This document shows, one piece after another, positions 3-14,555 of a stretch of 64,000 nt of DNA. Origin of the DNA: Candidatus Methanosuratincola subterraneus (GTDB lineage Archaea; Thermoproteota; Methanomethylicia; Methanomethylicales; Methanomethylicaceae); NCBI GenBank assembly GCA_004028775.1, contig RXGA01000001.1, positions 124,001-188,000 of the forward strand, read 5' to 3'. The translations under genes and the position numbers were made by a program. A model generated the notes under the pieces. The model was not told the DNA's origin and did no database searches. It saw only the letters and a list, made by a program, of their open reading frames with translations. Positions within the stretch are counted from its first letter, which is position 1; each line of letters opens with the position of its first letter.

Positions 3-1004
3 ACCAGCTCGATAATAAGGATGGCCACCGAGGCGCAAAAGAAAGGTCTGAAGACCGCGGTGATTGTGAACGAGATTGGGGATGTTGACGTCGATGGAGA
101 GTTTGTAAAGAGCTCTGGGCTAAAAGCCAAGAGGATCTTGGGCGGGTGCATCTGCTGCAGCCTGGGCGCAGACTTGGTCTCCACGATAAAGATTGTCGTG
201 GAGGAATTCAAACCTGATGTGATCTTCGTCGAGCCCACAGGGGTGGCCCTCCCCTCGCAGGTTAAGCGGTTCTTTGTGCAGGCCTCTTACCTAGTCCCCG
301 GTCTAGAGTTCTCCCCGACTGTTGCGCTGGTTGATGGCGTCAGGTTCCGTTCCCTGCTCGCCGAGTTCAAGGATTTCCTGACGAAGCAGGCCCGTGATGC
401 AGAGATCCTTGCGTTGACAAAGATTGACAGGATCGACAAGAAATTCGATCTCCCCCTGATAGTCTCTGCACTCAGCGAGATGAGGCCAGGGACAAGAGTG
501 ATCGGCGTTTCGTCGGTGACGGGCGAAGGGATGCCTGATCTCTTAGCCGCCATACTCGGGGAGCGGGTCGAATTGGATTCTGAGGCGAATCCAGCACAAG
601 ACGATTCGGTGGCAGAATCAGGAGTCGGCAATGCTGACTTCTACGGGATCCTCAGATCAGACAAGGATCTAGATGACAAAGCGATCAGATCTTTCGTGTC
701 AGAAGTGATCGAGGCAATGGGGAGGAAATGCATAGAAAAAACAGGGAGGATCCTTGGTCACATCAAAGCTTTCGGTGAGTCGCAGGGCAAGGGATTCAAG
801 GCGAGCATGGTCGATCTCACGACAGGCGTCGAATTCTCCGGAGACATCCCGCAGTCTTGGAAGGAGCTTAAGTTCTCTCTCTTCATGGCACTCGAGGGGT
901 TCGGATCTGAGGATATGCGTTCTTACCTAAAGGAAACGATCAGGGAAACCAGCAAAAAATATGGGTTGTCTGTTGAAGACCTCCACCACCAACACCACAA
1001 CTAG
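3..1004 (+). CDS. CobW/P47K-type GTPase (metallochaperone family), 5' partial
   Basis: Member of the CobW/HypB/UreG class of P-loop GTPases that deliver metals or service metallocofactors. The reading frame is open to the window edge, so the Walker A loop and true start lie upstream; the first in-frame ATG (position 21) is probably internal. Visible family marks in order: VNEIGDVDVDG (switch I-like strand), GGCICCS (the CxCC metal site), VEPTG (Walker B region) and TKID (guanine specificity). The C-terminus is His-rich (LHHQHHN), consistent with metal binding. It ends 4 nt into the convergent UroD-like gene and stands beside RamA, MtaC and MtaB. A role in handling the corrinoid or zinc of the methyltransferase system is inference; the family assignment is firm. 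Confidence 0.85.
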   Translation, partial: TSSIIRMATEAQKKGLKTAVIVNEIGDVDVDGEFVKSSGLKAKRILGGCICCSLGADLVSTIKIVVEEFKPDVIFVEPTGVALPSQVKRFFVQASYLVPGLEFSPTVALVDGVRFRSLLAEFKDFLTKQARDAEILALTKIDRIDKKFDLPLIVSALSEMRPGTRVIGVSSVTGEGMPDLLAAILGERVELDSEANPAQDDSVAESGVGNADFYGILRSDKDLDDKAIRSFVSEVIEAMGRKCIEKTGRILGHIKAFGESQGKGFKASMVDLTTGVEFSGDIPQSWKELKFSLFMALEGFGSEDMRSYLKETIRETSKKYGLSVEDLHHQHHN

Positions 1005-2005
1005 CCCTTTTTCAGGAACGGTTCGAGCGCTGATAGCTTCTCCAGATTGTGGGAAGTCAGGATGAACGGCTCCCCTCCGTCTGTGCTGACTATCAAATTC
1101 TTGGGCGCGCCCGAAGCCAGCCTAACTGATATATCCCTGATCCTGCTCTCCTCCTCTTGGTCGGCAGGGACCTTGAAGTTCCCCATCACGGCCGCCTGGT
1201 TGGCCAATGCCTCAGAGACCCTCAGAAGATCTGAATCCCTTGAGATGTGGACAATGTAGCTCCTTGGGGGCAACTGTGTCAGGAATTTCAGGCTCCTGGC
1301 ATCCTCTTCGAATTGGATGATCGGCACGACGCCTTCTTTGATAATCCCTTCTAGCAACGTCTTCGTGGTTGGCCATACCACCTTGTCGAAGTAGTAGTCC
1401 CCCACGATCGCCGGGGTCGCATTCGTGAACGAGACCCAAACCCTGGGGACTTTGCATGACTTTGCAAATTCAGCCAGGAACTTTGGGTACTTCTTGGCTA
1501 TCGTCATCGCCGTGTTGTAGATTTTCTGTTGGTCCTTAGCCATGTCCCTCATGGTATCGTTGAAGCCCCTGTAGTACGATATGTAGCCTATCGGGGTTAT
1601 GGCCATCGCGCCGCAGTAGCTTGCAACCCCCCAGCCCCCTGTCTCTTCAACGAAACTGCTCACCAATCCGGGTGCCTCAGCAAGCCTTCTCTCCAGTTCA
1701 ACTACTAGGTCATTTTCCTTGTGGATCTTCAACGCATATTCAACGGGCCCATAGTCGCAGAGGTCGTCGTAGCCATCGATGTCCTTTATTATCCGGACCG
1801 GCTCTCTGAGCGAAGGCTTCGACGGGAGGTATACCCATCCCGAGTCAAAGACGGCTGGATGGAGCAGGAATCCATCAAATTTCTTCAAGACAGATTCGCT
1901 GTTTTTTACGACCTCAGAGAATTTTTCCCTCTTGGAAGTGATTACTGGAGCGACCGGCGTCCTTCCAGTGTTCTCCAGCTTTATTGTCTCCTCTATTATC
2001 CCCAT
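1001..2005 (-). CDS. UroD/MtaA-fold protein lacking the zinc ligands
   Basis: 334 residues, the usual length of uroporphyrinogen decarboxylase-fold methylcobamide:CoM methyltransferases (MtaA, MtbA). Fold marks include FDSGW near residue 54 and VMGNFKVP near 273, matching the GN(I/V)xP turn of the family. In MtaA the zinc that activates CoM is held by an HxC motif and a later Cys. Here the first site reads H253-I-S255 and the second position reads TDGG near 308-311, so two of three ligands are absent. A standard CoM methyltransferase is therefore unlikely. It follows an unknown gene by 14 nt on the same strand, divergent from ramA, suggesting an accessory or regulatory role in the corrinoid system (inference). 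No decarboxylase function is claimed. Confidence 0.75.
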   Translation of the reverse strand: MGIIEETIKLENTGRTPVAPVITSKREKFSEVVKNSESVLKKFDGFLLHPAVFDSGWVYLPSKPSLREPVRIIKDIDGYDDLCDYGPVEYALKIHKENDLVVELERRLAEAPGLVSSFVEETGGWGVASYCGAMAITPIGYISYYRGFNDTMRDMAKDQQKIYNTAMTIAKKYPKFLAEFAKSCKVPRVWVSFTNATPAIVGDYYFDKVVWPTTKTLLEGIIKEGVVPIIQFEEDARSLKFLTQLPPRSYIVHISRDSDLLRVSEALANQAAVMGNFKVPADQEEESRIRDISVRLASGAPKNLIVSTDGGEPFILTSHNLEKLSALEPFLKKG

Positions 2006-2019
2006 CTCAAGTTCACAAA

Positions 2020-2616
2020 TTATAATTTATGAATGTTGAACCCTATAAGGACTACCCCGAGGTTCTTGTTCGAGACATCGATCCCCTTCTTTCTCAACCA
2101 GTCCTTTAAGAGTAGATCAGTGTATGTTGAGGGCATGCCGAGGACAAGCCCGTGAATCCCTTCAGGGGCTTCTACCCCAACACTCATTGGGGGTATAAAG
2201 ACCTTTATCTCGCCCGACATCGCCTTCCTCACGCTGTTGGGAGGAAGCTTGTCCTTGAATATCACGAAACTGTCCCCGAGCAGCATCGCGTTCTCGTCCT
2301 TCTTGTATGATTCTAGGAGTGACTTGTCCCTAATCTCGACGCCCACGGTGTCGCCGAGATAAATCAGCTCTACGGGCTCGGGAGGGTAAGTGTAGTTCTC
2401 ATCAGTGATGGCTGCGAGCAGATGGTCCCTTTTCAATGCCTCCCTGACTCCCGCATTGTATTTCAGGAAAAACCCGCCCGTGTTGTTCTCCTCGCAAAGC
2501 TCCGAAGAGAGGATCTCGTTCTTCAGCTCTGTGGGTAGCAGAACCGCATCAACAATCCCTTTAACATTGATCAGCCTTTCCATGAGGCTGCCGACGACAT
2601 ATTCAAAAGACGACAT
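2020..2616 (-). CDS. Unrecognised protein next to corrinoid activation genes
   Basis: 198 residues, no family recognised. It is soluble, with no membrane segment or signal peptide, one cysteine (near residue 40) and mixed alpha/beta composition. It has a hydrophobic beta-rich middle (VELIYLGDTVGVEI) and a C-terminal stretch rich in Leu/Val/Gly (GLVLGMPSTYTDLLL). It is first of a two-gene leftward unit with the UroD-like gene and shares a short AT-rich intergenic region with divergent ramA. This placement suggests a part in methyltransferase activation or sensing, but nothing in the sequence proves it. Start: ATG at 2616 sits just after an AT-rich promoter; no strong ribosome binding site is visible. 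Confidence 0.65.
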   Translation of the reverse strand: MSSFEYVVGSLMERLINVKGIVDAVLLPTELKNEILSSELCEENNTGGFFLKYNAGVREALKRDHLLAAITDENYTYPPEPVELIYLGDTVGVEIRDKSLLESYKKDENAMLLGDSFVIFKDKLPPNSVRKAMSGEIKVFIPPMSVGVEAPEGIHGLVLGMPSTYTDLLLKDWLRKKGIDVSNKNLGVVLIGFNIHKL

Positions 2617-2639
2617 ATTTTTTACACGTTAAAATGGTA

Positions 2640-2690
2640 TAACATACATTTATATTTATTTATAACAATAATTACTATATAAATTGACTT
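2640..2690. promoter_or_regulatory. Divergent promoter region, unknown gene / ramA
   Basis: AT-rich stretch between divergent starts. A rightward TATA-like run (TTTATATTTATTTATAA, about 2648-2664) lies about 25 nt before the likely ramA transcript start. The complementary strand offers a TATA-like run for the leftward gene. Boxes assigned by eye. Confidence 0.5.
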
Positions 2691-2703
2691 GGAGGATGGG
2701 TTT

Positions 2704-4335
2704 TTGTACGGGCTGGCGATAGATATCGGAACGAGCGGAATACGGATCCAGGCGCTTGACCTGAATACCTCTGAGGTGGTTGCGACAGCCATAACCCTGA
2801 GGCACCCCTTGCCTGGGGCTAATGTGATCGATCACCTTCATTTTGCAGTCGAGGTCGGCGAAGATGTGGCGCATAAGCTCATAATCGACACGATTAACTC
2901 GCTCCTCAAGCTTCTTGAAATCGATCTCTCCAAGGTGGAGAGGGTGGCAGTCGACGGGAACCCGACCCAGCTTTCACTCTTCCAGAACATCGAGGTCCGC
3001 GATCTGGCCTACTGGGGCGAGCATGCGATGCACGATTACAATATAAAGCCGCCCGAAAGGAATGCCTGCGTGATCAAAGCCGGATCGGTGGGGCTCGACC
3101 TGAACCCGGAGGCTGATGTTTACGTGCCTCCAGGCGTGAAGCACGAGATCGGCGCCGACGCACTCGCCATGCTCGTCAAATCAGGGGTCTTGGAGAAGCG
3201 GGGGATATCCCTCGTGACCGACTTCGGGACTAATGCGGAGATAGCGCTCGTGATAGACGGCGAGGTTTTCACCTGCTCCGCCGCAGCCGGCCCTGCAATC
3301 GAGGGCCAGCGGATCGAGAAGGGGATGCTTGCTGCGCCGGGGGCGATCTGCGATGTTAACCCTGAATCCAATGGCTGGAGGATGACGATTCTAAACGAAC
3401 AGTTGCTGGCTGAGAAGGGCGATGCGGTCCTGCCCCACTCCGGGGAGGTTGTGGCAAGAGGACCGATGAGTGGCAAGGCTCATGGGATCACGGGGACAGG
3501 GGTGATCGCGGTGCTCGCCCTCGGTATCTCTTCGGGGCTCATCAAGCTCCCTAATATAGCAACCCAGGACAGGAAGCTCTACCTCCAGGATGGGGTTTAC
3601 TTTACAAGGCGCGACTTGGTCGAGGCAGGGAAGGCGATCGGGGCTTTCCGTGCCGGCCATATTTCGCTTTGCGAGGAGGCAGGGATCACTATGCAGGACA
3701 TAGACACTTCATACATGGCCGGCGCCTCCGGGTTCTATGTGGATGCGAACAAGTCAATGGATGTAGGTCAGATCCCTGCATGCTCGAGGAAAGTCTACCA
3801 GATAGGGAATACCTCGCTCGGCATGGCAAAAGACATCGTTTTGAAGCCTGATATGATCGATACGCTCCAAAGCATGGCAGACAGCATAAGGGGGCGGCAC
3901 ATAATGCTCGCCACTTCTAAGGTATTCGAGAAAGTTTACACCCTGGAGCTCTCATACTGGGATGAGGGCATGCCGATCACCATCTACAATGAGTATCTCA
4001 GGAGATATGGATACAACCCATTGCCCAAGAGGGTTCCAAACCCCGAGATAAAGAGGATCTACATGCGTGACATCCCTGAGCTCGGAAAGAAGGGGCTTAA
4101 AGTCCTTAGGGACATCGGGGTGACCCTCATCGGCGAATTCGATGGGTGCACAGGCTGCGAAAGCTGCGTCAAGGGCTGCCCGGAGAGCGCAATAAGGATC
4201 GAGCCAGCAGGCGACAGATACAGGATAGTCATCAAATCCGAGCTGTGCGACGGGATGGCCTGCCTCCGATGCCAGCAGGCTTGCCCTGATCAGGTCTTCA
4301 AATACTCGAGCCTGCTAAAAGGCAAAAGGGAATAG
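2704..4335 (+). CDS. ramA: RamA-like reductive activator of corrinoid methyltransferases
   Basis: ATP-dependent iron-sulfur protein that reduces inactive Co(II) corrinoid to Co(I) on methyltransferase corrinoid proteins. The N-terminal ASKHA-like activator domain opens with AIDIGTSGIRIQ and has a second nucleotide-binding region at SLVTDFGTNAEIAL. The C-terminus carries two [4Fe-4S] ferredoxin motifs, CTGCESCVKGCP and a variant C-x4-C-x2-C-x3-CP. At about 543 residues it matches RamA, whose iron-sulfur domain is also C-terminal. Start: a longer frame opens with TTG at 2689, but GGAGG at 2691-2695 sits 8 nt before a second in-frame TTG at 2704, immediately before the conserved YGLAIDIG, so 2704 is preferred. 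It faces mtaC-mtaB and would keep MtaC active. Confidence 0.9.
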   Translation: MYGLAIDIGTSGIRIQALDLNTSEVVATAITLRHPLPGANVIDHLHFAVEVGEDVAHKLIIDTINSLLKLLEIDLSKVERVAVDGNPTQLSLFQNIEVRDLAYWGEHAMHDYNIKPPERNACVIKAGSVGLDLNPEADVYVPPGVKHEIGADALAMLVKSGVLEKRGISLVTDFGTNAEIALVIDGEVFTCSAAAGPAIEGQRIEKGMLAAPGAICDVNPESNGWRMTILNEQLLAEKGDAVLPHSGEVVARGPMSGKAHGITGTGVIAVLALGISSGLIKLPNIATQDRKLYLQDGVYFTRRDLVEAGKAIGAFRAGHISLCEEAGITMQDIDTSYMAGASGFYVDANKSMDVGQIPACSRKVYQIGNTSLGMAKDIVLKPDMIDTLQSMADSIRGRHIMLATSKVFEKVYTLELSYWDEGMPITIYNEYLRRYGYNPLPKRVPNPEIKRIYMRDIPELGKKGLKVLRDIGVTLIGEFDGCTGCESCVKGCPESAIRIEPAGDRYRIVIKSELCDGMACLRCQQACPDQVFKYSSLLKGKRE

Positions 4336-4396
4336 ACATTCTTTCAGCTCTGATTTTTCTAAAAATTCCAATGAAATAAGCAATTAATAATTAAGA

Positions 4397-4431
4397 AATA
4401 AAATTAAAATAAAACAAAAAAAAAGAAAAAA
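4397..4431 (-). terminator. Oligo-T terminator of mtaBC
   Basis: The plus strand has a long A-rich run ending in about 20 near-continuous A residues, so the leftward mtaB-mtaC transcript ends in a T-tract just after the mtaC stop codon, the usual archaeal intrinsic terminator. A shorter T-run near 4351 may end ramA. Confidence 0.6.
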
Positions 4432-4441
4432 GGGAAGTTGC

Positions 4442-5269
4442 TTACATCCTGTCTGCGTACTCCGCAACAAACTCCCCGACGATCTTCGGGTATTCCTTGC
4501 GGATTTCCTTCCAGCTCTTGCCTGCCAGCGCTGCCTCTGCAAGCTTCGGTGCGTGGAACGCCTTGACTCCGTAGACTCCCATGTCGTAGGACTCCACAAA
4601 GTCCCTCTTCACTGCACCGCCGCCGCAGCCGAACACCGGGACCGAGATGCCCTGTTCCTGGAGTGCCTTCGCCACCCTCGGGAAGGCGGTCATGGTTGTG
4701 GTCATCAGTGCCGTGCCGGTCAGCATCACTGGCTTGTACTTCTTGACTGCCTCGATTACTTCCTTGTCCGGGACGTCCCTGCCAAGGTCAACCGCCTCGA
4801 ACCCGTTCGCCTTCAGGAACATCACGACGAGGTTCTTTCCAATGTCGTGCGGGTCACCCTCGGCGACGAATGAGACAACGGTGCCCTTCTTCTCCCTGGC
4901 CCTGCCAAGCTTCTGCTCAGCCACTGCCATAGCCGCAGTCATGGCATCTGCAGAGAGCATTATGTCGGGCAGGAAGTAGGCTCCCTTGGCGTATAGAGCG
5001 CTGACTGCATCCATTCCCTTGGCAAGCCCCTTCTCGATCACGTCGAGCGGAGAAGTCCTCTCGAGAGCCGTCTTCGCAGCCTGAACCGCTTTTTCTGTGT
5101 CTCCGAATATCACAGCCATTGCCAGCGTCCTGAATGGCTCTTCCTTTGGCAGTACTTTCTTGACGTCCGGGTCGTCTTCTGGCTTAATTGCCGGTCCTTC
5201 GATTATGACGTTGTACCTCTTGAACATCATGTCGAAGTCCGCTTTCTTAGCCCAATCTAAAAGTGCCAT
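4442..5269 (-). CDS. mtaC: Methanol corrinoid protein MtaC
   Basis: Corrinoid-binding shuttle that accepts the methyl group of methanol from MtaB and passes it to a CoM methyltransferase. 275 residues: an N-terminal helical cap (about 45-125), then a Rossmann-like B12 domain with the base-off signature EGDPHDIGKN, whose His141 should ligate cobalt. A Gly-rich strand (PVFGCGGGAV) follows for the cofactor tail. Start: the frame opens with a GTG overlapping the mtaB stop, but GAGGTG lies 7 nt before the ATG at 5269, which is preferred. It is translated just after mtaB. The closest family fit is MtaC, given its MtaB partner, although methylamine corrinoid proteins share the fold. Confidence 0.9.
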   Translation of the reverse strand: MALLDWAKKADFDMMFKRYNVIIEGPAIKPEDDPDVKKVLPKEEPFRTLAMAVIFGDTEKAVQAAKTALERTSPLDVIEKGLAKGMDAVSALYAKGAYFLPDIMLSADAMTAAMAVAEQKLGRAREKKGTVVSFVAEGDPHDIGKNLVVMFLKANGFEAVDLGRDVPDKEVIEAVKKYKPVMLTGTALMTTTMTAFPRVAKALQEQGISVPVFGCGGGAVKRDFVESYDMGVYGVKAFHAPKLAEAALAGKSWKEIRKEYPKIVGEFVAEYADRM

Positions 5270-5280
5270 TTTGCAACACC

Positions 5281-6669
5281 TCACAATCCATAGCTCTTCG
5301 GGTCAAATGTCGGTATCTTCCTTGGGTATTCTCTCATGCACTGGTCAACGAATATCTCTGCTTCCATCGGGAGGCTCTCGAGGATGCTTGTGTACTTCCT
5401 CAGCGTGTCGAGCTCGAACCTCGTCAGCTGAAGTAGCTTGGCCTCATATGCTTCCATCATGATCTTGGAAGCCTCGAGCGCAGCGGCCCTTGCCCTCAGG
5501 TAGATGTCCTTTCCATACTCAACTATTGCTTTTCCTACCCTGAATGCGTTAGGATATGCGAGCAGCGTGCCCTGCGGGTCTCTGTACATGTCTGTGAACG
5601 TGTACAGGTCCCTGAGCGTCTTTGCATTGCCCGTCTGGATCGCAGTGTTCATCAGCGCAGCCTCGTAGCCTGTGGCCTGCAGCCATACTGCTGGTGTAGG
5701 TCCGCCCATCTCCTCCCTGTGGAAGACCGACTCATTGCTCCAGCAGTCCACCACCTGGCAGGTTAGGTTGCCCATGACATCTGCATGCGCGCAGACTGCG
5801 TTCTTGCCTTCCTGGCAGATCGGGACGCCTGTTATCGCCTTTATTATGGTGTTCTCGTATCCGCAGTCCTTCAGCGGACCTGTCGCGCCGCATTCGACAG
5901 CGACTAGGCTCCTTGCTGCAGAGATCGCCCTGGCAAGCGCAGCAGCCGTGTGCGACATATCCTTGCCCAGCAAGCCTCCTGCTACGTACATGCAGGTGTT
6001 AGCTCCTGAGCAGTTGGTATCGCCCGCAGGTCTTGTGTCATACTTGCTGCAGATGTTTACTGCCCTTGTCCAGAAGTACTCCATGTCTACGCTGCCTAGG
6101 TATCCAATCCCAAATAGGATTGCCTTAATGTCTCCTCTCATCACACCGTAGTCAAGGACCGACTTTCCTCCCATGGTCTCTGCCGCTATGTCCGAAGCCC
6201 CTGCCTTGCAGCACTCCTCGATTGTCTCTGCGATCCTGTTGTCATACTCGGAGCCCCTTAGGCCTCCTTTCTCCTCAATCCTCAGGTCTCCGACTGTCTG
6301 CCTCAGGCACGCCCTGACGCCGTATTCGTCATAGTATTTCTTGAGAACCTCTGCCTGCGCAAGTGTGCACGCATAACCCCAGTCGGGATGGTATGTCTGC
6401 TGGAAGACATGCTCCTGCTCAAGCATAAATGCCGGTAGACCAATGTCGACCGCCCTTGCTGCTGCTTGTTCTGCAATAGAAGCCATTTCTTTCACTAGAG
6501 TATCCTTGCTGCGCTCCGTTCCTGCCTCGGGAGCGACCTTGACCTCTGGTACCACGTAGCCTGCGCCGAACTGCACGTTCCAGTGCTCTAGCACTGGGAA
6601 CTTGGCATGGCCAAAGACCATGTCGTCGGGATCCTTGTATGCCATTTTAGTATATCTTCTAACTCCCAT
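5281..6669 (-). CDS. mtaB: Methanol:corrinoid methyltransferase MtaB
   Basis: Zinc enzyme that activates methanol and methylates the Co(I) corrinoid of MtaC, the first step of methanol-based methanogenesis. 462 residues from the ATG at 6669. With this start the zinc ligands of Methanosarcina MtaB (Glu164, Cys220, Cys269) fall at exactly the same numbers: AAET with E164, DTNCSG with C220 and KDCG with C269. This supports 6669 over the in-frame GTG at 6681, and the N-terminus RRYTKMAY also matches MtaB. It is first gene of the mtaB-mtaC unit with its own AT-rich promoter. No Pyl (amber) codon interrupts the frame, unlike methylamine methyltransferases, so methanol is the expected substrate. Confidence 0.95.
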   Translation of the reverse strand: MGVRRYTKMAYKDPDDMVFGHAKFPVLEHWNVQFGAGYVVPEVKVAPEAGTERSKDTLVKEMASIAEQAAARAVDIGLPAFMLEQEHVFQQTYHPDWGYACTLAQAEVLKKYYDEYGVRACLRQTVGDLRIEEKGGLRGSEYDNRIAETIEECCKAGASDIAAETMGGKSVLDYGVMRGDIKAILFGIGYLGSVDMEYFWTRAVNICSKYDTRPAGDTNCSGANTCMYVAGGLLGKDMSHTAAALARAISAARSLVAVECGATGPLKDCGYENTIIKAITGVPICQEGKNAVCAHADVMGNLTCQVVDCWSNESVFHREEMGGPTPAVWLQATGYEAALMNTAIQTGNAKTLRDLYTFTDMYRDPQGTLLAYPNAFRVGKAIVEYGKDIYLRARAAALEASKIMMEAYEAKLLQLTRFELDTLRKYTSILESLPMEAEIFVDQCMREYPRKIPTFDPKSYGL

Positions 6670-6859
6670 ATTATTCCCCACTATATATTCAACAGAGATT
6701 GTTATTAAGCGCTGTTCTTATTTTTATTAGGTAGAGCATCATCGTTGCTTAATTTATTGAGCAAATAACTATGTTATATTAAGTTTAAAATATAAAAATC
6801 TCGTGTTTTTTGTTCAAAAATATTAAATTTAGTTGTACACTTTTTAATACAGTTGAAAA

Positions 6860-7132: not shown

Positions 7133-7498
7133 GTGCAAAAAGGTAGCCGTGGGCCGATGCCCTCAGAAAAAGTTTCTTTGCTTGTTGCCTTAGCCTTCAT
7201 GATTATAGGCATAGCTGGTTGTATCGCCGCCTCCATAGCCTTTAATTTCATTTTGTTGTTGGCTTTTGTAGAAATCACTTCAGTCTCAATGTTTTTCATC
7301 CTTCTCTTGAGTTTCATACCTGCCTATTTCCCGGATCGTATAAAGGCAGGCTCACTGTTCTATTGCGGCTTGGCAAAAGAACCTTATGTCAGCGATTCGA
7401 GCGTCTACAGGCCTAATGTACCGCTTCTGAATGTACCTTACGATACAAATTGGGATGAGTATTACGACAAATCAAAAATGAAGGTGGAGAAGGCATGA
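7133..7498 (+). CDS. Small two-helix membrane subunit of the hydrogenase operon
   Basis: 121 residues with two strongly hydrophobic segments (about residues 14-35 and 38-64), then a hydrophilic C-terminal half of about 55 residues. It is not recognisable as a known Hyc, Ech or Mbh subunit, although small membrane subunits are usual in these complexes. Start: GTG at 7133 after a G-run (GGGGGGT) 5 nt upstream; an ATG at 7157 is possible. The last 4 nt overlap the antiporter-like gene, so the two are translationally coupled. It probably anchors or bridges membrane subunits (inference). Confidence 0.75.
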   Translation: MQKGSRGPMPSEKVSLLVALAFMIIGIAGCIAASIAFNFILLLAFVEITSVSMFFILLLSFIPAYFPDRIKAGSLFYCGLAKEPYVSDSSVYRPNVPLLNVPYDTNWDEYYDKSKMKVEKA

Positions 7499-9051
7499 CG
7501 GCAGCAGGAGAGTCTGTTTTGACAATTGCCGTCCCTATATTGATCGTGCTGGGCGGCATAATTTCACCTCTCGTGTTCAGGAAAGGCAAAGCTCTGGCCG
7601 CATCCGCCAGCCTGTTCTTCTTGGTTGCGCTGGCATTGAACTCTTGGCTTTTGATTGGCGTCCAAGAGGGCGCGGCACTGTACTACCCGAACACCCAGGG
7701 CATAATTTTTAACGCGGCATCGGCATTCATTGTGGAAATTACGCTTGCCTTGGGTTTCCTTGGCGCTATATATAGCTACAGGTATTTCGAGGACGAAAAG
7801 ATCTTACCCCCCTTCTATGCGCTCTACTCTTTCTTCATTGCGACCCTTGTTATTATGGCAGTCTCCTTCAATATACTGATAATCTATGTAGCGTTTGAGG
7901 CGAGCACAATTGCGGGCGGCGTACTGATACTGTTCACAAAGCGGAGGAGCGCAACCAAGGCTGCAGTCAGGTTCTTCGTGCTGAGCGTCATCGGCGCGGT
8001 TACGATACTTGTCGGCATTCTTTATCAAAACTCGCTCACTGGCACCTTCATGCTGGAGCAGTCTGCATTCTCTGGAGTTGCTAACGGCGATCTGGTCCTG
8101 CTCTCTGCCCTGTATGCGATTGGCTTCAGCATCAAAGTCGGGATCTTTCCCTTTGGTCTGCTCTGGCTCCCTGCTGCTCACAGCGAAGCCCCCACCCCCG
8201 TGAGTGCAATACTCAGCGGGGTCATGGTTCAGATAGCCGCGTTCGCAGCCAGCAGGATAATTGGCGTGATATCCCCCGCGAGCTACGAGCTGGGTCTATC
8301 ACTGGTCGCGCTGGGCGCCCTGAGCGTTATCGTTGGCGCCGTCCTGGCTGCGGTAGAGGCAACCTATGGGAGCAAGTACTCGAGGTTCCATGTGAGCCCG
8401 GTCAATATAAGGGGTATAAAGAGGATCTGGGCTTTCTCGACCTCCTCCGAAGTCGGGGTCTTTTACATATTGATAGGGCTTGCATTGATGGCGCCTGCCC
8501 TGTCACCCCTATTCTTCGCAGGCATACTCCTGCACTTCCTGAACCACGGCCTCGCCAAGGCCCTCCTCTTCTTCGACAGCGGCTTCGTAATAGAGACCAG
8601 CCGGACCGCAGACCTCTCGCTCCTCAAAGGGCTGGGTGGCAAGGTGGGCGTCAACGGTCTTACATACCTCATTGGGGGCTTCTCCCTCTCTCTTATACCT
8701 GGCACTCTGGGGTACAACACCTTCCTGGAGTTTACCCGGGGGCACATCAGCATGGAGATTACTGCGGTTATACTTACGGCTGCGCTGTTCATCTTCTTCA
8801 CCACGCTGTACTCGCTCAGATCAATAGTTGCAGGAAAGCCGAAGGCTAAGGTTGAGTACATTGACAAAGTCCATAGCCACGCCATCCTCAGGATCCCTGG
8901 CGTACTGCTGGCAATCTGCATCGTCGCCTTGGGCATCATAGTGCTCTTGGGTGCGAATGGGATCGCGCTTGAGGGATACTACCACCAGTTCGAGGAGTGG
9001 TTCAGCGTGGCTGCTAAGACAATTTCAGAGCCGTGGGTAGGTGTTGCATGA
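7495..9051 (+). CDS. Antiporter-like membrane subunit (HycC/HyfB, NuoL/M/N family)
   Basis: Ion-translocating subunit of the kind shared by complex I, Mrp antiporters and group 4 hydrogenases. 518 residues, mostly hydrophobic, with about 14 predicted helices. Family marks are the motif LPAAHSEAPTPVSAILSG near residues 223-240, preceded by a helix with a conserved Lys (GFSIKVGIFPFGLLW), and a later HFLNHGLAKALLFF helix typical of HycC/HyfB. Charged residues inside helices match the proton path. Start codon overlaps the upstream gene by 4 nt. Its presence implies that the complex moves H+ or Na+ across the membrane. Only one large antiporter-like subunit is encoded here. Confidence 0.9.
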   Translation: MTAAGESVLTIAVPILIVLGGIISPLVFRKGKALAASASLFFLVALALNSWLLIGVQEGAALYYPNTQGIIFNAASAFIVEITLALGFLGAIYSYRYFEDEKILPPFYALYSFFIATLVIMAVSFNILIIYVAFEASTIAGGVLILFTKRRSATKAAVRFFVLSVIGAVTILVGILYQNSLTGTFMLEQSAFSGVANGDLVLLSALYAIGFSIKVGIFPFGLLWLPAAHSEAPTPVSAILSGVMVQIAAFAASRIIGVISPASYELGLSLVALGALSVIVGAVLAAVEATYGSKYSRFHVSPVNIRGIKRIWAFSTSSEVGVFYILIGLALMAPALSPLFFAGILLHFLNHGLAKALLFFDSGFVIETSRTADLSLLKGLGGKVGVNGLTYLIGGFSLSLIPGTLGYNTFLEFTRGHISMEITAVILTAALFIFFTTLYSLRSIVAGKPKAKVEYIDKVHSHAILRIPGVLLAICIVALGIIVLLGANGIALEGYYHQFEEWFSVAAKTISEPWVGVA

Positions 9052-9578
9052 TGTCATACATAGTGGCTCCACAAAAGAAGCTTAAGGAACCAATTCCCGT
9101 CCCGGGCACTAAAGAGAAGGTCACGGATCTCGTGATCATCCATGATCAGACCAAGTGCACGGGATGCGGGCAGTGCATGATCGGTTGCGCATACAAGCAC
9201 TTCAGGACGTTTGACAGGCGGTTCGGACTGCTCTACGTCTACGAGGACCCGATCAACAAGGGCCGGTATGTGAACGCAAACTGTTCGCATTGCGTCTTCC
9301 CAATGTGCCTCGCCTCATGCCCGAAGGAAGCCATTTACAAGGATGAGAAGGGGATAGTCCGAATATCGCCGTTGCTCTGCGTCGGGTGCGGGACATGCAA
9401 CCAAGCCTGCCCGATTGGGATACCGAGGCTTGACGAGGAGCGGAAAGTCTATGTCAAGTGCGACTTCTGCGATGGGGAATGGCCCATGTGCGTCCAGATG
9501 TGCAGCTCGAATGCGCTGAGGCTGCTTCCGAGGAAGGAGGCATTTGAATATGTCAAAAAATTGAGGGGTGGCAAATGA
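9048..9578 (+). CDS. Four-cluster ferredoxin subunit (HycB-like)
   Basis: Electron-transfer subunit of the HycB/DmsB type. Four [4Fe-4S] Cys groups are visible: CTGCGQCMIGC, CSHC-x4-C-x3-C, CVGCGTCNQAC and CDFC-x5-C-x3-C. In formate hydrogenlyase HycB wires the formate dehydrogenase to the hydrogenase; here the partner at that position appears to be the HdrB-like protein two genes on. Start: ATG at 9048 (or 9051), overlapping the antiporter stop and preceded by GGTAGGTG; the longer frame from 9033 is unlikely. About 176 residues, no membrane helix, so it should sit on the cytoplasmic side. It may take over the electron-wire job of HdrC. Confidence 0.9.
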   Translation: MMSYIVAPQKKLKEPIPVPGTKEKVTDLVIIHDQTKCTGCGQCMIGCAYKHFRTFDRRFGLLYVYEDPINKGRYVNANCSHCVFPMCLASCPKEAIYKDEKGIVRISPLLCVGCGTCNQACPIGIPRLDEERKVYVKCDFCDGEWPMCVQMCSSNALRLLPRKEAFEYVKKLRGGK

Positions 9579-9931
9579 TGTCTGGCGATTCTGATCGGAT
9601 AAAGAGCTGGGAGAAGTTGCTCGAGGCTGGGCTGAAGGCAACCGAGCACAATCAGGACGAAGAGGCAAAGATGTACCCCCTCAGGAAGCAATTCAGGCCT
9701 GCGGCGCCAAACATCGCAAAAGCCTCCTTGAAGAGGGACTTCGAAGTGGGCTTGGTCTATTATGTTGGGGATGATGTCGAGCAGGACCGGGCACTCTGCG
9801 GGCTGGAGAAGAAGCCTCCGACCGCCCATACCTTCAAGGAAGCTTTGGAGAGGAAGCGTAAGATCTTGGAGGAGTCAGGGATAATGAAAGAGCTCGGCTT
9901 CGACAAGAAGAAGGGCTACTTCAAATATTGA
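9575..9931 (+). CDS. Small unrecognised soluble protein between ferredoxin and HdrB genes
   Basis: 118 residues, charged, with only one cysteine (LCGLEKK), so it cannot be a canonical HdrC, which needs eight Cys for two clusters. Two amphipathic helical parts (about 8-30 and 85-112) flank a short beta-like centre (EVGLVYYVGDDVEQD). It overlaps the ferredoxin gene by 4 nt, and the next gene begins 12 nt after its stop behind an AGGTGG site, so it is part of the same translational chain. It may be an adaptor joining the HdrB-like protein to the hydrogenase (inference). No homolog is recognised. Confidence 0.65.
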   Translation: MMSGDSDRIKSWEKLLEAGLKATEHNQDEEAKMYPLRKQFRPAAPNIAKASLKRDFEVGLVYYVGDDVEQDRALCGLEKKPPTAHTFKEALERKRKILEESGIMKELGFDKKKGYFKY

Positions 9932-9942
9932 GGTGGAAACAA

Positions 9943-10842
9943 ATGGGAACAAAAGTGTCATCGGGTTCAACTGGAACTAAGTACGGCTATTTCTTGGGCT
10001 GCGTGATGCCCGCTAAAATGCCTTGGGCGGAAAAGGCAACCTTCTTGGTTTCGAAGCATCTCGGGCTCGATTTTGATTACATGAAGGAGAGCGTCTGCTG
10101 CGTGCGCCCTGGGGTATGGAAGGCGATTAACCCCGACTGGTGGCTGACGCTGACGAGCCAGAACCTGGCAACGGCTGAGAAGCAGAATATAGTTATAGTT
10201 GATTCGTGCAACGGTTGCTACATATCGCATTGGGAGTGCCTCCAGGAGCTCAAAGAAGATCCAGAGAAGCTTGAGATGGTCAACAGGAACCTGGAGAAGG
10301 CGGGGCTGCAGGTCACACTCAGCACGGATGTGAAGCACTTCCTCCAGGTGCTTTACGAGGATGTCGGGATCGGAAAGATAAAGGCAAACGTGGTCAAGCC
10401 GCTCAACATAAGGATAATGCGTCACATAGGCTGCCACGCGAGGAAGCACGACGAGCGGTTCCCAATGTACTTCGATGAGATAATGCGCGCAACGGGCGCC
10501 ACAATAGTCGACACGCCCTACGACAAGACCTGCTGCGGGCTTCTGTTGTATTTCGCAGATCCGAAGACCTCGATATTCGAAAGGATAGGCGTGAAGATGC
10601 AGACCGCAAAGGAATTGGACATAGATGCTTATGCGCTCATCTGCTCAGGGTGCTATGACCAATTCGAGAGGGCTGTGAAAGTCTACAAAGATGAGAAGGG
10701 CATTGCCTTTGAAACCCCGATCGTGCACTTCTCAGAGCTCCTCGCCCTCTCATTCGGGTACAAGCCGGAGGACTTTGGCATGATGTACTGCCGTCCCATA
10801 CCGCCGACTAAGCTCATACAGAAACTCAAGGAGGGGAAATAA
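9943..10842 (+). CDS. hdrB: HdrB-like CCG-domain heterodisulfide reductase subunit
   Basis: HdrB carries the two noncubane [4Fe-4S] clusters that split CoM-S-S-CoB. 299 residues from the ATG at 9943, preceded by AGGTGG; the frame opens 15 nt earlier at a TTG. Both CCG motifs are complete: Cys20, Cys52-Cys53, Cys89/Cys92 (spacings 31 and 35), and Cys164, Cys197-Cys198, Cys234/Cys237 (spacings 32 and 35). All ten ligand positions known from HdrB are therefore present. The odd feature is location: no hdrA or hdrC adjoins it, and it lies inside a group 4 hydrogenase operon between a HycB-type ferredoxin and the catalytic subunit. Another CCG-family oxidoreductase cannot be excluded, but the double intact motif favours true heterodisulfide chemistry. 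Confidence 0.88.
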   Translation: MGTKVSSGSTGTKYGYFLGCVMPAKMPWAEKATFLVSKHLGLDFDYMKESVCCVRPGVWKAINPDWWLTLTSQNLATAEKQNIVIVDSCNGCYISHWECLQELKEDPEKLEMVNRNLEKAGLQVTLSTDVKHFLQVLYEDVGIGKIKANVVKPLNIRIMRHIGCHARKHDERFPMYFDEIMRATGATIVDTPYDKTCCGLLLYFADPKTSIFERIGVKMQTAKELDIDAYALICSGCYDQFERAVKVYKDEKGIAFETPIVHFSELLALSFGYKPEDFGMMYCRPIPPTKLIQKLKEGK

Positions 10843-12552
10843 TTGAAATTCGAGACCGCTCCTGATGTTGCTGAGTACGTAAAGAAGGAGATATACCCTG
10901 ATGGCCTAGAATACGTTCCGCTCAGGGAGAACCGGGTGATTGTTAAGGTTGCCCCCGGCGATCTCACAAAGGTAGCGGAGCTCTTCGTGAAAAAATTCGA
11001 GGCGAGGCTCATTCATGCAACAGCAGTCGATCTGGAGCTGAAGGGCTTCGAGGTCCTGCACATTTATGACTTCTCCAAGTTTAAGGACAGGCTCGTTGTA
11101 ATCGTCAAGGCAATTGTCGACAAGGACAGCCCTGAATTCCCTTCGATTGCAAACATCACTTGGCAGGCGACTTGGGCAGAGAGGGAAATGAAAGAGCTGC
11201 TGGGGGTCAAGCCGTCCGGGATGCCCGACCCGCGGCACCAGTTCCTGCCCCACGAGTGGCCAAACCCTGTTGAGAGCGGATCGATCCCCGAGGGGTACAA
11301 ATTCGATGGCTCCACGACGGCCAAGGAGATGTACCTGCCGCTGAGGATGCCTATCGAGGAGGCCTACCAGACGCTAATACCGATCGGCCCGTACCACCCA
11401 GGCGTCATCGAGGGCCAGATCGTCTACGTAAAGGTCGAGGGGGAGCAGGTCGTCGCTGCAGACATAAAGACTGGGTTCCACCACCGCGGAATAATGAAGC
11501 TCATAGAGCGGAGGGGCTACAACAAGGGCGCGTTCCTTGCCGAGAGGGTATGCGGGATCTGCTCGGCAGCCCATGGGCTTGCTTATATCACATGCACAGA
11601 GAACCTCTATGAGTCAGAGGTCCCTGAGAGGGCGCTATACATAAGGACCCTGCTCGCGGAGCTCAACAGGATGCACAGCCACCTCCTCTGGGTCGGCGTG
11701 GTTGCGGATGTGATCGGGTGGAAAACTGGTTTCATGCTGACTTGGGGTCTCAGGGAGCGTGTAATGGACATAATTGAAGCCATTACAGGGAACAGGGTCA
11801 ACTATGGCATTTGGAGGATGGGCGGGGTCAGCAGGGATGTTCCGCAGGAGCTTGCCGAGAAGGCGAAGAGGACGGTCGACGCGCTGCGGGAAGAGTGCGC
11901 AAAGTTGCTGTTGCTAGTAGCAGATCACCCGGTCGTGAAGTCGAGGCTCATCGGAGTAGGCCCGCTCACGAGGGCGCAGGCTTACGACGGGGGCGCAGTC
12001 GGTCCTGTGGCAAGGGCTAGCGACTGGAAGATCGACGTCCGGATAGACAATCCGCCCCACGCAATCTACGACCCGAAGGTGATCTCTTGGGAGGTCATCA
12101 CAGATGACCACTGTGACACATTCGGGAGGACGCTAGTCAGGGTCAAGGAGCTGCTCGTCTCCTGCAGTATCGTTTCCCAGTGCTTGGAGTATTTGGCCAA
12201 GACAACTGGCGACATAAGGATCAAGCCAAAGACAGTCCCGCTGGGGGCTGAGGCTGTAGGACTCAACGAGGCGCCCAGAGGGGAGCTCGCTTACTACATC
12301 AGGGCATCCGACAAAGACTCGAGTTTGCCGCACACTGTGAGGATAAGGACGCCCAGCTACAGGAACAATGCAATTATCCCCTTGATGCTCGTCGGATCGA
12401 ACCTGGCGGACGTCCCGGTGGTGATGGGCAGCACTGACCAGTGCCTCGCATGCACCGACAGGTTAGAGGTAATTGACAATAGGGATGGTGGCAGGAAGAT
12501 CCTGACATGGGATCAGCTAGTAAACTTGAGCAGGAGGGCGAGCAGATGGTAG
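10843..12552 (+). CDS. Group 4 [NiFe] hydrogenase large subunit, NuoC-NuoD fusion (HycE-like)
   Basis: Catalytic subunit. Residues 1 to about 165 form the NuoC-like 30-kDa domain; about 175-569 form the NuoD-like catalytic domain, as in HycE, which has the same fusion and length (569). Nickel ligands are present: C237-G-I-C240 in ERVCGICSAAHG and C534-L-A-C537 in DQCLACTDR, so it is a hydrogenase rather than an Fpo/Nuo subunit that lost the metal site. The usual DPC is DQC here. A 29-residue tail follows Arg540, matching the C-terminal extension that a HycI-type protease removes after this Arg in HycE; no such protease is in the window. Start: TTG directly after the hdrB stop, with GAGGGG 8 nt upstream. 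Confidence 0.92.
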   Translation: MKFETAPDVAEYVKKEIYPDGLEYVPLRENRVIVKVAPGDLTKVAELFVKKFEARLIHATAVDLELKGFEVLHIYDFSKFKDRLVVIVKAIVDKDSPEFPSIANITWQATWAEREMKELLGVKPSGMPDPRHQFLPHEWPNPVESGSIPEGYKFDGSTTAKEMYLPLRMPIEEAYQTLIPIGPYHPGVIEGQIVYVKVEGEQVVAADIKTGFHHRGIMKLIERRGYNKGAFLAERVCGICSAAHGLAYITCTENLYESEVPERALYIRTLLAELNRMHSHLLWVGVVADVIGWKTGFMLTWGLRERVMDIIEAITGNRVNYGIWRMGGVSRDVPQELAEKAKRTVDALREECAKLLLLVADHPVVKSRLIGVGPLTRAQAYDGGAVGPVARASDWKIDVRIDNPPHAIYDPKVISWEVITDDHCDTFGRTLVRVKELLVSCSIVSQCLEYLAKTTGDIRIKPKTVPLGAEAVGLNEAPRGELAYYIRASDKDSSLPHTVRIRTPSYRNNAIIPLMLVGSNLADVPVVMGSTDQCLACTDRLEVIDNRDGGRKILTWDQLVNLSRRASRW

Positions 12553-13520
12553 ATTTGATCTTTACAGTGATCAGTTTGATTGTTATAGTGCCCTTGGCTC
12601 TATTCTTGGGAGTCATATACTCCTACTTGTTGAGGAAGCTCTCTGCAAGGTTCCAGTGGCGGGTAGGGCCGATGCTGAGGATGTACGGCGACCTGAAGCC
12701 TCTGCTTGGGACGACCAGGTTGCTGCAGCCGCTCTATGACATCCTGAAGCTGTACGGCAAGGAGACGATAGTCCCTGATGTTTCGAGAAGGCGACTCTTC
12801 GTCTACTCCCCGTTCCTGTCCCTGTTCTTTGCGGTTGCCGCAATATTCTTCATCCCGTTCCCTGGGATGCCGCTGCTCTCCGGGGTTCCATATAGCCTGA
12901 TAATCGCGTCATACTTGCTTATCGCATCGATACTCTTCACAATCCTCGGGCCCGTCGCGAGCGGATCGCCATGGGCAGCAATAGGCGCGAGGAGAGAGGT
13001 CGAGCTCTTCCTCGTTTCTGAGCTCGGATTCGTGCTGAGCCTCTTCGCAGTTGCCATTGCCAGGCAGTCGCTTGTCATATGGGAGATCTCATCAGGAGGT
13101 CAGTCATTGTACCTGGCGCTGCTCACAGTGACTGCGGGCGCTCTGATGTTTGTAGCCATGCTGGGGAAGCTGCACATAAAGCCCTTCGATATGCCCGAGG
13201 CAGAGGCGGAGATAGTTGCGGGGCCATACACCGAGTACTCGGGGAAGCTTTTGGGGACTTACTATTTGACCAAGGTATTCCTTCTCTACGGGCTTGTGGC
13301 GCTCTTCATCTCACTCTTCCTCCCGCCGATTGCCACCGACGTGCTCTGGCTTCCGCTGTATATCGTGGCGGCTGTGGTGCTGGTCTTCCTGCTCACTTCG
13401 GTCCAGGTCTTGAACCCGAGATACAGGATCAGGAACGCGATAAACTGGTATCTCAAAGTGGCGATCCCGCTGGGGGTGCTGAATTTCATTATCGCTCTGG
13501 CGATATGGTTGGTGGTGTGA
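12546..13520 (+). CDS. Membrane anchor subunit (HycD/EchB, NuoH family)
   Basis: 324 residues, eight or so hydrophobic helices. The NuoH-type subunit holds the hydrogenase arm to the membrane and begins the proton path at the quinone-like cavity. Family marks are the early loop RVGPMLRMYGDLKPL and the acidic loop PFDMPEAEAEIVAGPYTEYSG near 205-225, the best-conserved NuoH stretch. Start: an in-frame opening exists at 12507, but the ATG at 12546 is behind AGGAGGGCGAG and overlaps the preceding stop by 7 nt, so 12546 is chosen. It is followed with 1 nt spacing by the NuoI-like gene. Confidence 0.9.
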   Translation: MVDLIFTVISLIVIVPLALFLGVIYSYLLRKLSARFQWRVGPMLRMYGDLKPLLGTTRLLQPLYDILKLYGKETIVPDVSRRRLFVYSPFLSLFFAVAAIFFIPFPGMPLLSGVPYSLIIASYLLIASILFTILGPVASGSPWAAIGARREVELFLVSELGFVLSLFAVAIARQSLVIWEISSGGQSLYLALLTVTAGALMFVAMLGKLHIKPFDMPEAEAEIVAGPYTEYSGKLLGTYYLTKVFLLYGLVALFISLFLPPIATDVLWLPLYIVAAVVLVFLLTSVQVLNPRYRIRNAINWYLKVAIPLGVLNFIIALAIWLVV

Positions 13521-13521
13521 A

Positions 13522-14109
13522 ATGTCTACTGAAATTAAGATCCTCAAACAGGTTCTGTCGAAGTACAGCAAACCGATGACCCTGACTTACCCGTCTGGGG
13601 TAGCCCCTGACAGGCGGTATAGCCAGATACCTGAAGGGCTCCGTGGCATACCTGAGCGGGACAAAGACAAGTGCATCGGCTGCAGGGCCTGCTACTTCGT
13701 CTGCTCCGGGAGGGCTACCAGCATATACGACAAAGGCGAAAAGCGGACAGTTGAGATCTTCCTCTTCAGGTGCACCTTCTGTGCCCATTGCCAGGAGGCC
13801 TGCCCCGAGGAGGCGATAAAGATGACTAACAAGTTCGAGATAGCAGTCCCCAACCGGGAGGATCCTGCGGCGCGGGTCCTCACCGAGCTCGACCTCCTCA
13901 AGTGCAAGAACTGCGGCACCCCGTATGTGACAAGGAAGCTCGTGGACAGGACTTATGAGAGGTTGATGGAGAAGATCGACCCGATCGTTAAGGAGACCGT
14001 TTCGAACGACTACAAGAAACTTGACGGATACTGCCCTGACTGCAGGAGGGCTTATGGTGTCGATTTAGACACCCATACGAAGAAGTACGTCTGGCTGGAG
14101 GGAGTCTGA
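13522..14109 (+). CDS. Two-cluster ferredoxin subunit with zinc-ribbon tail (HycF, NuoI-like)
   Basis: 195 residues. Two [4Fe-4S] motifs, CIGCRACYFVC and CTFCAHCQEACP, form the NuoI-like wire between the small subunit and the outer ferredoxin. The C-terminal part adds a Cys pair set, CKNCGTPY and YCPDCRRAY, a likely zinc ribbon also found in HycF/HyfH. The first cluster motif ends C-SGRA rather than CP, a mild deviation. The ATG follows the NuoH stop by 1 nt with GGTGGTGTG before it. Confidence 0.88.
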   Translation: MSTEIKILKQVLSKYSKPMTLTYPSGVAPDRRYSQIPEGLRGIPERDKDKCIGCRACYFVCSGRATSIYDKGEKRTVEIFLFRCTFCAHCQEACPEEAIKMTNKFEIAVPNREDPAARVLTELDLLKCKNCGTPYVTRKLVDRTYERLMEKIDPIVKETVSNDYKKLDGYCPDCRRAYGVDLDTHTKKYVWLEGV

Positions 14110-14555
14110 TGGGGATAATGGACAAGGCTCGGATATACTCGCCCTGGCTCTACCACCTGCACTGCGGCGGCTGCAACGGATGCGACATAGAGACCTTGGC
14201 TGCGCTGGCCCCTCGGTTCGATGTCGAGCGCTTCGGGGTCCAGCTCGTGCCGTCCCCCAGGCATGCCGACATACTGCTGACGACGGGATGCGTACCGAAG
14301 CAGTTCATCCCGATGGTAAAGCGGATATACGAACAGGTCCCGGCGCCGAAGGTTGTGGTCGCGGTCGGAAGCTGTGCCTGCGGCGGCAGCCTCTTCTACG
14401 ATGACGCTCCAGAGAATTATGCAATACTCGGGCACCCTGACTTGCTGATACCTGTTGATGTATATGTGCCAGGGTGCGCCCCAAAGCCTGAAGCAATAAT
14501 TAATGGGGTGGTGCAGGGGATCCTGAAGCTTGCCGAAAAGCGCTCGAAGAAGTGA
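14109..14555 (+). CDS. Group 4 [NiFe] hydrogenase small subunit (HycG/EchC, NuoB-like)
   Basis: 148 residues. Carries the [4Fe-4S] cluster nearest the nickel site. Ligands: Cys22 and Cys25 in CGGCNGCD, the Cys of GSCACGG near 93-97, and the Cys of PGCAPKPE. There is no Tat signal and no second or third cluster domain, as expected for group 4 and unlike group 1. The start codon overlaps the previous stop (TGATG). It is the last gene of the hydrogenase operon; about 100 nt separate it from the RHH regulator. No maturation genes (hyp, protease) lie downstream. Confidence 0.92.
   Translation: MGIMDKARIYSPWLYHLHCGGCNGCDIETLAALAPRFDVERFGVQLVPSPRHADILLTTGCVPKQFIPMVKRIYEQVPAPKVVVAVGSCACGGSLFYDDAPENYAILGHPDLLIPVDVYVPGCAPKPEAIINGVVQGILKLAEKRSKK

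Follow-up and report, generated by a model that had tools for sequence, protein, structure and literature searches.

Can a membrane-bound [NiFe] hydrogenase be wired directly to the subunit that reduces the heterodisulfide CoM-S-S-CoB? This question is raised by a nine-gene operon of Candidatus Methanosuratincola subterraneus (assembly GCA_004028775.1), an archaeon of the order Methanomethylicales, in which a gene for the heterodisulfide reductase subunit HdrB stands among genes for a hydrogenase that resembles formate hydrogenlyase. The operon lies in a stretch of 64,000 nucleotides (contig RXGA01000001.1, positions 124,001 to 188,000 of the forward strand), here called the window, to which all coordinates refer. 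An earlier note on this DNA had proposed that the complex couples H2 oxidation to heterodisulfide reduction and ion pumping, and knew of no described complex of this composition. The complex as stated there is already known: Ehd, with the same proposed H2:heterodisulfide and ion-exporting role, is described for Methanomethylicia/Verstraetearchaeota in PMC9723716, which cites Borrel et al. 2019, and Ehe, Ehg and Drh are described alongside it. Drh of Methanocella, a relative of Ehd, was named in 2015 by Lyu and Lu, according to PMC6046458.

The analysis presented here indicates that the operon, found in a methyl-reducing methanogen, probably encodes Ehd as a membrane-bound enzyme that transfers electrons from H2 to the heterodisulfide; HdrB would be docked through a small adaptor protein, and the reaction would probably drive the ion-translocating module. 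What may be new is the anatomy of this adaptor and of a domain fusion related to it; no report of this anatomy was found in a literature search outside which Borrel et al. 2019 lay.

Results

Composition of the operon

Nine open reading frames (ORFs) occupy positions 7157-14555 on the forward strand, each overlapping or abutting its neighbour (Table 1). All nine genes of the overlapping operon recognised in the earlier note are present, and each subunit type named there is backed by Pfam or NCBIfam matches, including Proton_antipo_M (1e-26), a four-cluster ferredoxin, HdrB (TIGR03288, 4e-60), a fusion of the 49 kDa and 30 kDa families, NADHdh, a HycF/HyfH-like family and Oxidored_q6. The start had been placed at 7133, and by alignment the first gene most likely begins with the ATG at 7157; the NuoK/ND4L-like character of its product, taken from a single weak match, is suggestive only. 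No formate dehydrogenase H subunit is found among the nine genes. As in Ehd, group 4 [NiFe] hydrogenase genes are clustered with HdrB and an antiporter subunit in a Methanomethylicia methanogen, the genome of which encodes McrA, and the HdrC subunit is represented solely by a C-terminal domain that lacks clusters.

Metal sites and residues of the ion path

The ten cysteines of the CCG clusters of HdrB (C20, 52, 53, 89, 92, 164, 197, 198, 234 and 237) are all kept, as the earlier note had read from its two CCG motifs, and they are invariant in the 17 aligned sequences and in 19 further HdrB copies. The protein scores 203.5 bits against TIGR03288, below the curated NCBIfam equivalog cut-off of 345 bits, and in the HdrB tree the HdrB proteins of Ehd branch off on a long stem as a clade of their own, a divergent one; among solved structures, the nearest to them are genuine HdrB chains of methanogens. 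The four-cluster nature of the HycB-like ferredoxin is borne out by 16 cysteines that are invariant in the alignment. The cysteine pairs that had been called intact in HycE are found in the motifs RVCGIC (L1) and DQCLAC (L2), so that all four ligands of the NiFe site are retained. The L2 motif of Ehd HycE in Methanomethylicales reads DQC..C, the usual form in relatives being DPC..C; with Q as second residue, neither P nor L, it falls outside the group 4 pattern [DE][PL]C..C, its ligand cysteines being intact. Charged residues typical of the ion paths of NuoL/M and NuoH are conserved in HycC and HycD.

The 118-residue adaptor is derived from HdrC

The 118-residue protein, listed as unknown in the earlier note, can be given an identity. 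By itself it matches TIGR03290 (HdrC) over residues 59-103, and a profile built from 19 members of its family matches solved HdrC chains (8rvu, 1.9e-11; 5odc, 2.7e-8), the matches being confined to the C-terminal domain of HdrC. No cysteine is conserved across the 19 sequences, and the two [4Fe-4S] ferredoxin motifs of HdrC are thus missing. Because the profile covers only the C-terminal domain and no conserved cysteine is present, the protein is, on profile evidence, the C-terminal domain of HdrC minus its ferredoxin part.

In eight loci of other Thermoproteota (L138, L139, L140, L141, L142, L148, L149 and L150) an HdrC-type domain is fused behind NuoC, and in all eight this fusion adjoins HdrB and a large subunit without NuoC; PF00329, the NuoC family, was confirmed in all four fusions tested, three of which also match the HdrC model (5e-6 to 8e-3). 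Moreover, the tail motif of NuoC, which reads DWP..YPLRKD in E. coli HycE and has a similar counterpart in FpoC of this genome, is absent from every Ehd- or Ehe-type HycE examined; in most of the clusters concerned, it is the adaptor that begins with a PLRK-like motif. The simplest reading would be that a NuoC-HdrC protein was split, its NuoC body being joined to HycE and its tail and HdrC domain being left as the 118-residue gene. Since the HdrC domain is fused to NuoC elsewhere and the PLRK tail resides in the adaptor and not in the complex's own HycE, the evidence that HdrB docks on the hydrogenase, though indirect, is strong and specific.

ORFs of 220-265 amino acids that match the adaptor profile had been candidates for intact HdrC and were rejected, as they are NuoC-HdrC fusions without clusters; intact HdrC is present in the Ehg-type loci L081, L082 and L151 and in L152. 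Five fusion loci (L140, L141, L142, L149 and L150) appear to be soluble relatives that contain HycB, the NuoC-HdrC fusion, HdrB and HycE but have no match to HycD or HycC next to these genes, and a HycG-HycF fusion was seen in L140, the one tested. Genes that by eye resemble a flavin disulfide-oxidoreductase and GcvH adjoin the fusion cluster of L138 (L138:12604-14377).

Conservation across relatives

In Methanomethylicales the identical nine-gene order recurs, far beyond chance, in the complete clusters of eleven genomes, including this one (the others being represented by L009, L010, L013, L014, L016/L083, L017, L018, L071, L080 and L084), which answers a check proposed in the earlier note. 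The trees that had also been proposed there recover the same clades for HdrB and for the large subunit HycE, as expected if both are inherited as a unit, although the deeper branches are weak and several of the rows long. HdrB of this genome and HdrB of Ca. Methanosuratincola petrocarbonis V4 are 100% identical. The conserved operon, the matching trees and the NuoC-HdrC domain fusion together favour the view, taken from the start, that HdrB is part of the hydrogenase complex.

Two Ehd loci, L070 and L072, have a longer small subunit (148-150 amino acids) with extra hydrophobic segments. Divergent McrA-like matches (E 1e-19 to 1e-21) were seen in G017:C112, G011:C3, G015:C212 and G020:C23, in G017 and G011 in addition to a normal copy, in G015 and G020 as the sole match.

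Genomic and physiological context

In the genome (1.51 Mb, 96.7% complete) no recognisable HdrA was found, the matches of the HdrA search spanning just a ferredoxin segment; an HdrE-type cytochrome and a second canonical HdrB were likewise not found. The group 3 hydrogenase of the genome resembles Shy/sulfhydrogenase and not Mvh, and Fpo-like and Mbh-like complexes are encoded. Because HdrA and HdrE were not found, flavin-based bifurcation by HdrABC or a route through HdrDE is unlikely here, in line with the earlier note. According to a survey, HdrA is missing from the Methanomethylicia lineage, in which HdrD or HdrBC may be used (PMC12054007), and a cultured close relative grows on H2 and methanol, reducing methanol with H2 (PMC12244365). 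Since HdrA, HdrE, a second HdrB and Mvh were not found, MtaB and MtaC are adjacent and the relative uses H2 and methanol, direct transfer from H2 to CoM-S-S-CoB through Ehd would be the most economical reading. MtaB and MtaC lie immediately upstream of the operon; together with two genes that by eye resemble the activator RamA and MtaA, they form a methanol methyltransferase neighbourhood (window 1001-6681).

Table 1. Genes of the Ehd operon and the adjacent methanol genes, with positions in the window.
Feature	Position	Strand	Basis
Small membrane subunit, ~113 aa, two predicted transmembrane helices, weakly NuoK/ND4L-like (E 0.4), invariant Glu39	7157..7498	+	ORF, alignment
HycC/NuoL/M-like antiporter subunit, 518 aa; conserved E135, K214, K309, H351, K355	7495..9051	+	Family matches, alignment
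HycB-like ferredoxin, four [4Fe-4S] sites (16 invariant Cys)	9051..9578	+	Family matches, alignment
118-aa adaptor: NuoC-tail motif YPLRKQF (residues 34-40), then cluster-less HdrC C-terminal domain	9575..9931	+	Profile search
HdrB, both CCG domains complete; possible upstream TTG at 9928	9943..10842	+	Family matches, alignment
HycE-like large subunit: NuoC domain without PLRK tail and [NiFe] catalytic domain	10843..12552	+	Family matches, alignment
HycD/NuoH-like membrane subunit; further in-frame ATG at 12507	12546..13520	+	Family matches
HycF/NuoI-like two-cluster ferredoxin subunit	13522..14109	+	Family matches
HycG/NuoB-like small subunit (proximal cluster)	14109..14555	+	Family matches
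Context: MtaB, methanol:corrinoid methyltransferase, divergent to the operon	5281..6681	-	NF040651, 1e-213
Context: MtaC corrinoid protein	4442..5284	-	NF040669, 1e-123

Discussion

The composition of the operon, its intact metal and ion-path residues, the identity of the adaptor, the domain fusion and the co-inheritance of the genes are the sequence features on which a model of Ehd can be built, and from them we infer the electron path, its direction, the substrate and ion export. The [NiFe] site of HycE would split H2, and the electrons would travel through HycG and HycF, then over the four cubanes in the HycB-like subunit, and so reach the two noncubane clusters in HdrB, a path that follows the architecture of formate hydrogenlyase (7z0s). 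HdrB would reduce the CoM-S-S-CoB made by Mcr, and H2-dependent reduction of this heterodisulfide by Ehd is likely. The adaptor would hold HdrB in place, with its detached NuoC tail on the hydrogenase and its HdrC domain carrying HdrB, and the HycB-like ferredoxin would take over the wiring role of the clusters lost from HdrC. HycC, HycD and the small subunit would constitute an intact module for ion translocation, which the exergonic reaction probably drives; the energy released in the H2:heterodisulfide reaction suffices for ion transport.

Several observations weigh against this model. The adaptor is poorly predicted by AlphaFold (mean predicted local distance difference test score of 46, from ten sequences), the genome encodes two HdrD-like proteins (C1:273k, and C2:197k with a GlcD-like flavoprotein), and the Ehd clusters of G010 and G024 (L070 and L072) lack the HycC antiporter gene. 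McrA is found in 23/23 genomes of the order and Ehd HdrB in 18/23, so Ehd is not obligatory: it appears lost, with McrA kept, from G011 and from the four genomes of genus g6 (G025-G028), in which only Fpo-like and Mbh-like large subunits are kept and HdrD-like proteins remain; absence from draft genomes is provisional, and the five genomes agree. Finally, Mbh, Ech and complex I move ions out of the cell as electrons travel toward the NiFe/quinone site. In an H2-oxidising Ehd electrons leave the NiFe site, and outward pumping therefore needs the coupling polarity to be reversed, which to our knowledge would be the opposite of every characterised group 4 hydrogenase. Outward pumping by Ehd is unproven, and either its polarity is reversed or the enzyme is uncoupled. 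The fully elaborated form of the model, a complex I-like Ehd with HdrB docked at the NuoC position by the split NuoC-tail/HdrC adaptor and H2 oxidation driving ion export, is put forward as a tentative and rather doubtful proposal.

Uncoupling is made possible by the HycC-less clusters and by the apparently soluble relatives that lack both HycC and HycD. Ehd could then be a physical H2:heterodisulfide oxidoreductase that conserves no energy or even imports ions, energy being conserved elsewhere, for example by the Fpo-like or Mbh-like complexes that the genome encodes; the polarity of known group 4 enzymes and the lack of an antiporter in Drh of Methanocellales (PMC9723716) speak for this. We nevertheless regard it as unlikely, since the conserved charged residues are retained in HycC and HycD of this genome, HycC is retained in all complete Ehd clusters besides those of G010 and G024, and neither HdrA nor Mvh was found as a source of reduced ferredoxin for the other complexes.

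The HdrD-like proteins, which are also present in relatives that have lost Ehd and keep McrA, raise the question whether one of them is the main CoM-S-S-CoB reductase, HdrB of Ehd acting on another disulfide or passing electrons from a thiol to H2. The module also occurs without McrA in Ehe-type relatives, and an alternative disulfide has been suggested for Culexarchaeia (PMC9723716). This is improbable in view of the full ligand set of HdrB and its relationship to true methanogen HdrB chains, and the HdrD-like proteins fit TfrB/LdhH/GlpC-type models better than HdrB. It would be more surprising still if HdrB were a mere genomic neighbour of the hydrogenase, soluble and serving another partner: HdrB is known from the soluble HdrABC complex and the adaptor lacks a cluster through which it could be wired, but the conserved gene order, the matching HdrB and HycE trees, the NuoC-HdrC fusion and the failure to find HdrA or a second HdrB in the genome make this very improbable.

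Ehd is the leading candidate for energy conservation in methyl-reducing methanogens without HdrA or cytochromes. The identity of the adaptor and the NuoC fusion turn the observation that HdrB adjoins a hydrogenase into a docking model that is specific and can be tested, and the combination of NuoC tail and HdrC C-terminal domain provides a marker for such complexes in other Thermoproteota. A whole genus that bears McrA without Ehd offers a natural comparison.

Compared with Ehd as presented in the available part of PMC9723716, the operon shares the membrane [NiFe] hydrogenase genes, HdrBC, an antiporter subunit, the lineage and the proposed role, and no difference was found; that text leaves unspecified which ORF is called HdrC and does not contain the point on the adaptor and the NuoC tail. 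Ehe of Culexarchaeia (PMC9723716) shares the modules and a separate HdrC-domain protein. By gene content, families f4-f6 match it, and gene content was likewise the sole basis for placing L075-L079 with Ehe; these families contain the same parts in another order (HycB, 118-residue protein, HdrB, HycG, small membrane subunit, HycC, HycE, HycD, HycF) and, unlike Ehd, have extra modules nearby and no McrA. Drh of Methanocella, compared by its description, is like Ehd a hydrogenase linked to HdrB and a proposed H2:disulfide enzyme, and differs in lacking the antiporter subunit that Ehd has (PMC9723716). All six subunits of E. coli formate hydrogenlyase (HycBCDEFG, 7z0s) have homologues in Ehd, HycE being 33% identical over 482 amino acids, whereas Ehd has HdrB and the adaptor in place of FdhF, an extra small membrane subunit and a HycE without the PLRK tail. 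With HdrABC-MvhAGD (5odc, 8rvu), Ehd has in common the ligands of HdrB and the C-terminal domain of HdrC; it departs from that complex in having no HdrA, Mvh, flavin or ferredoxin domain of HdrC.

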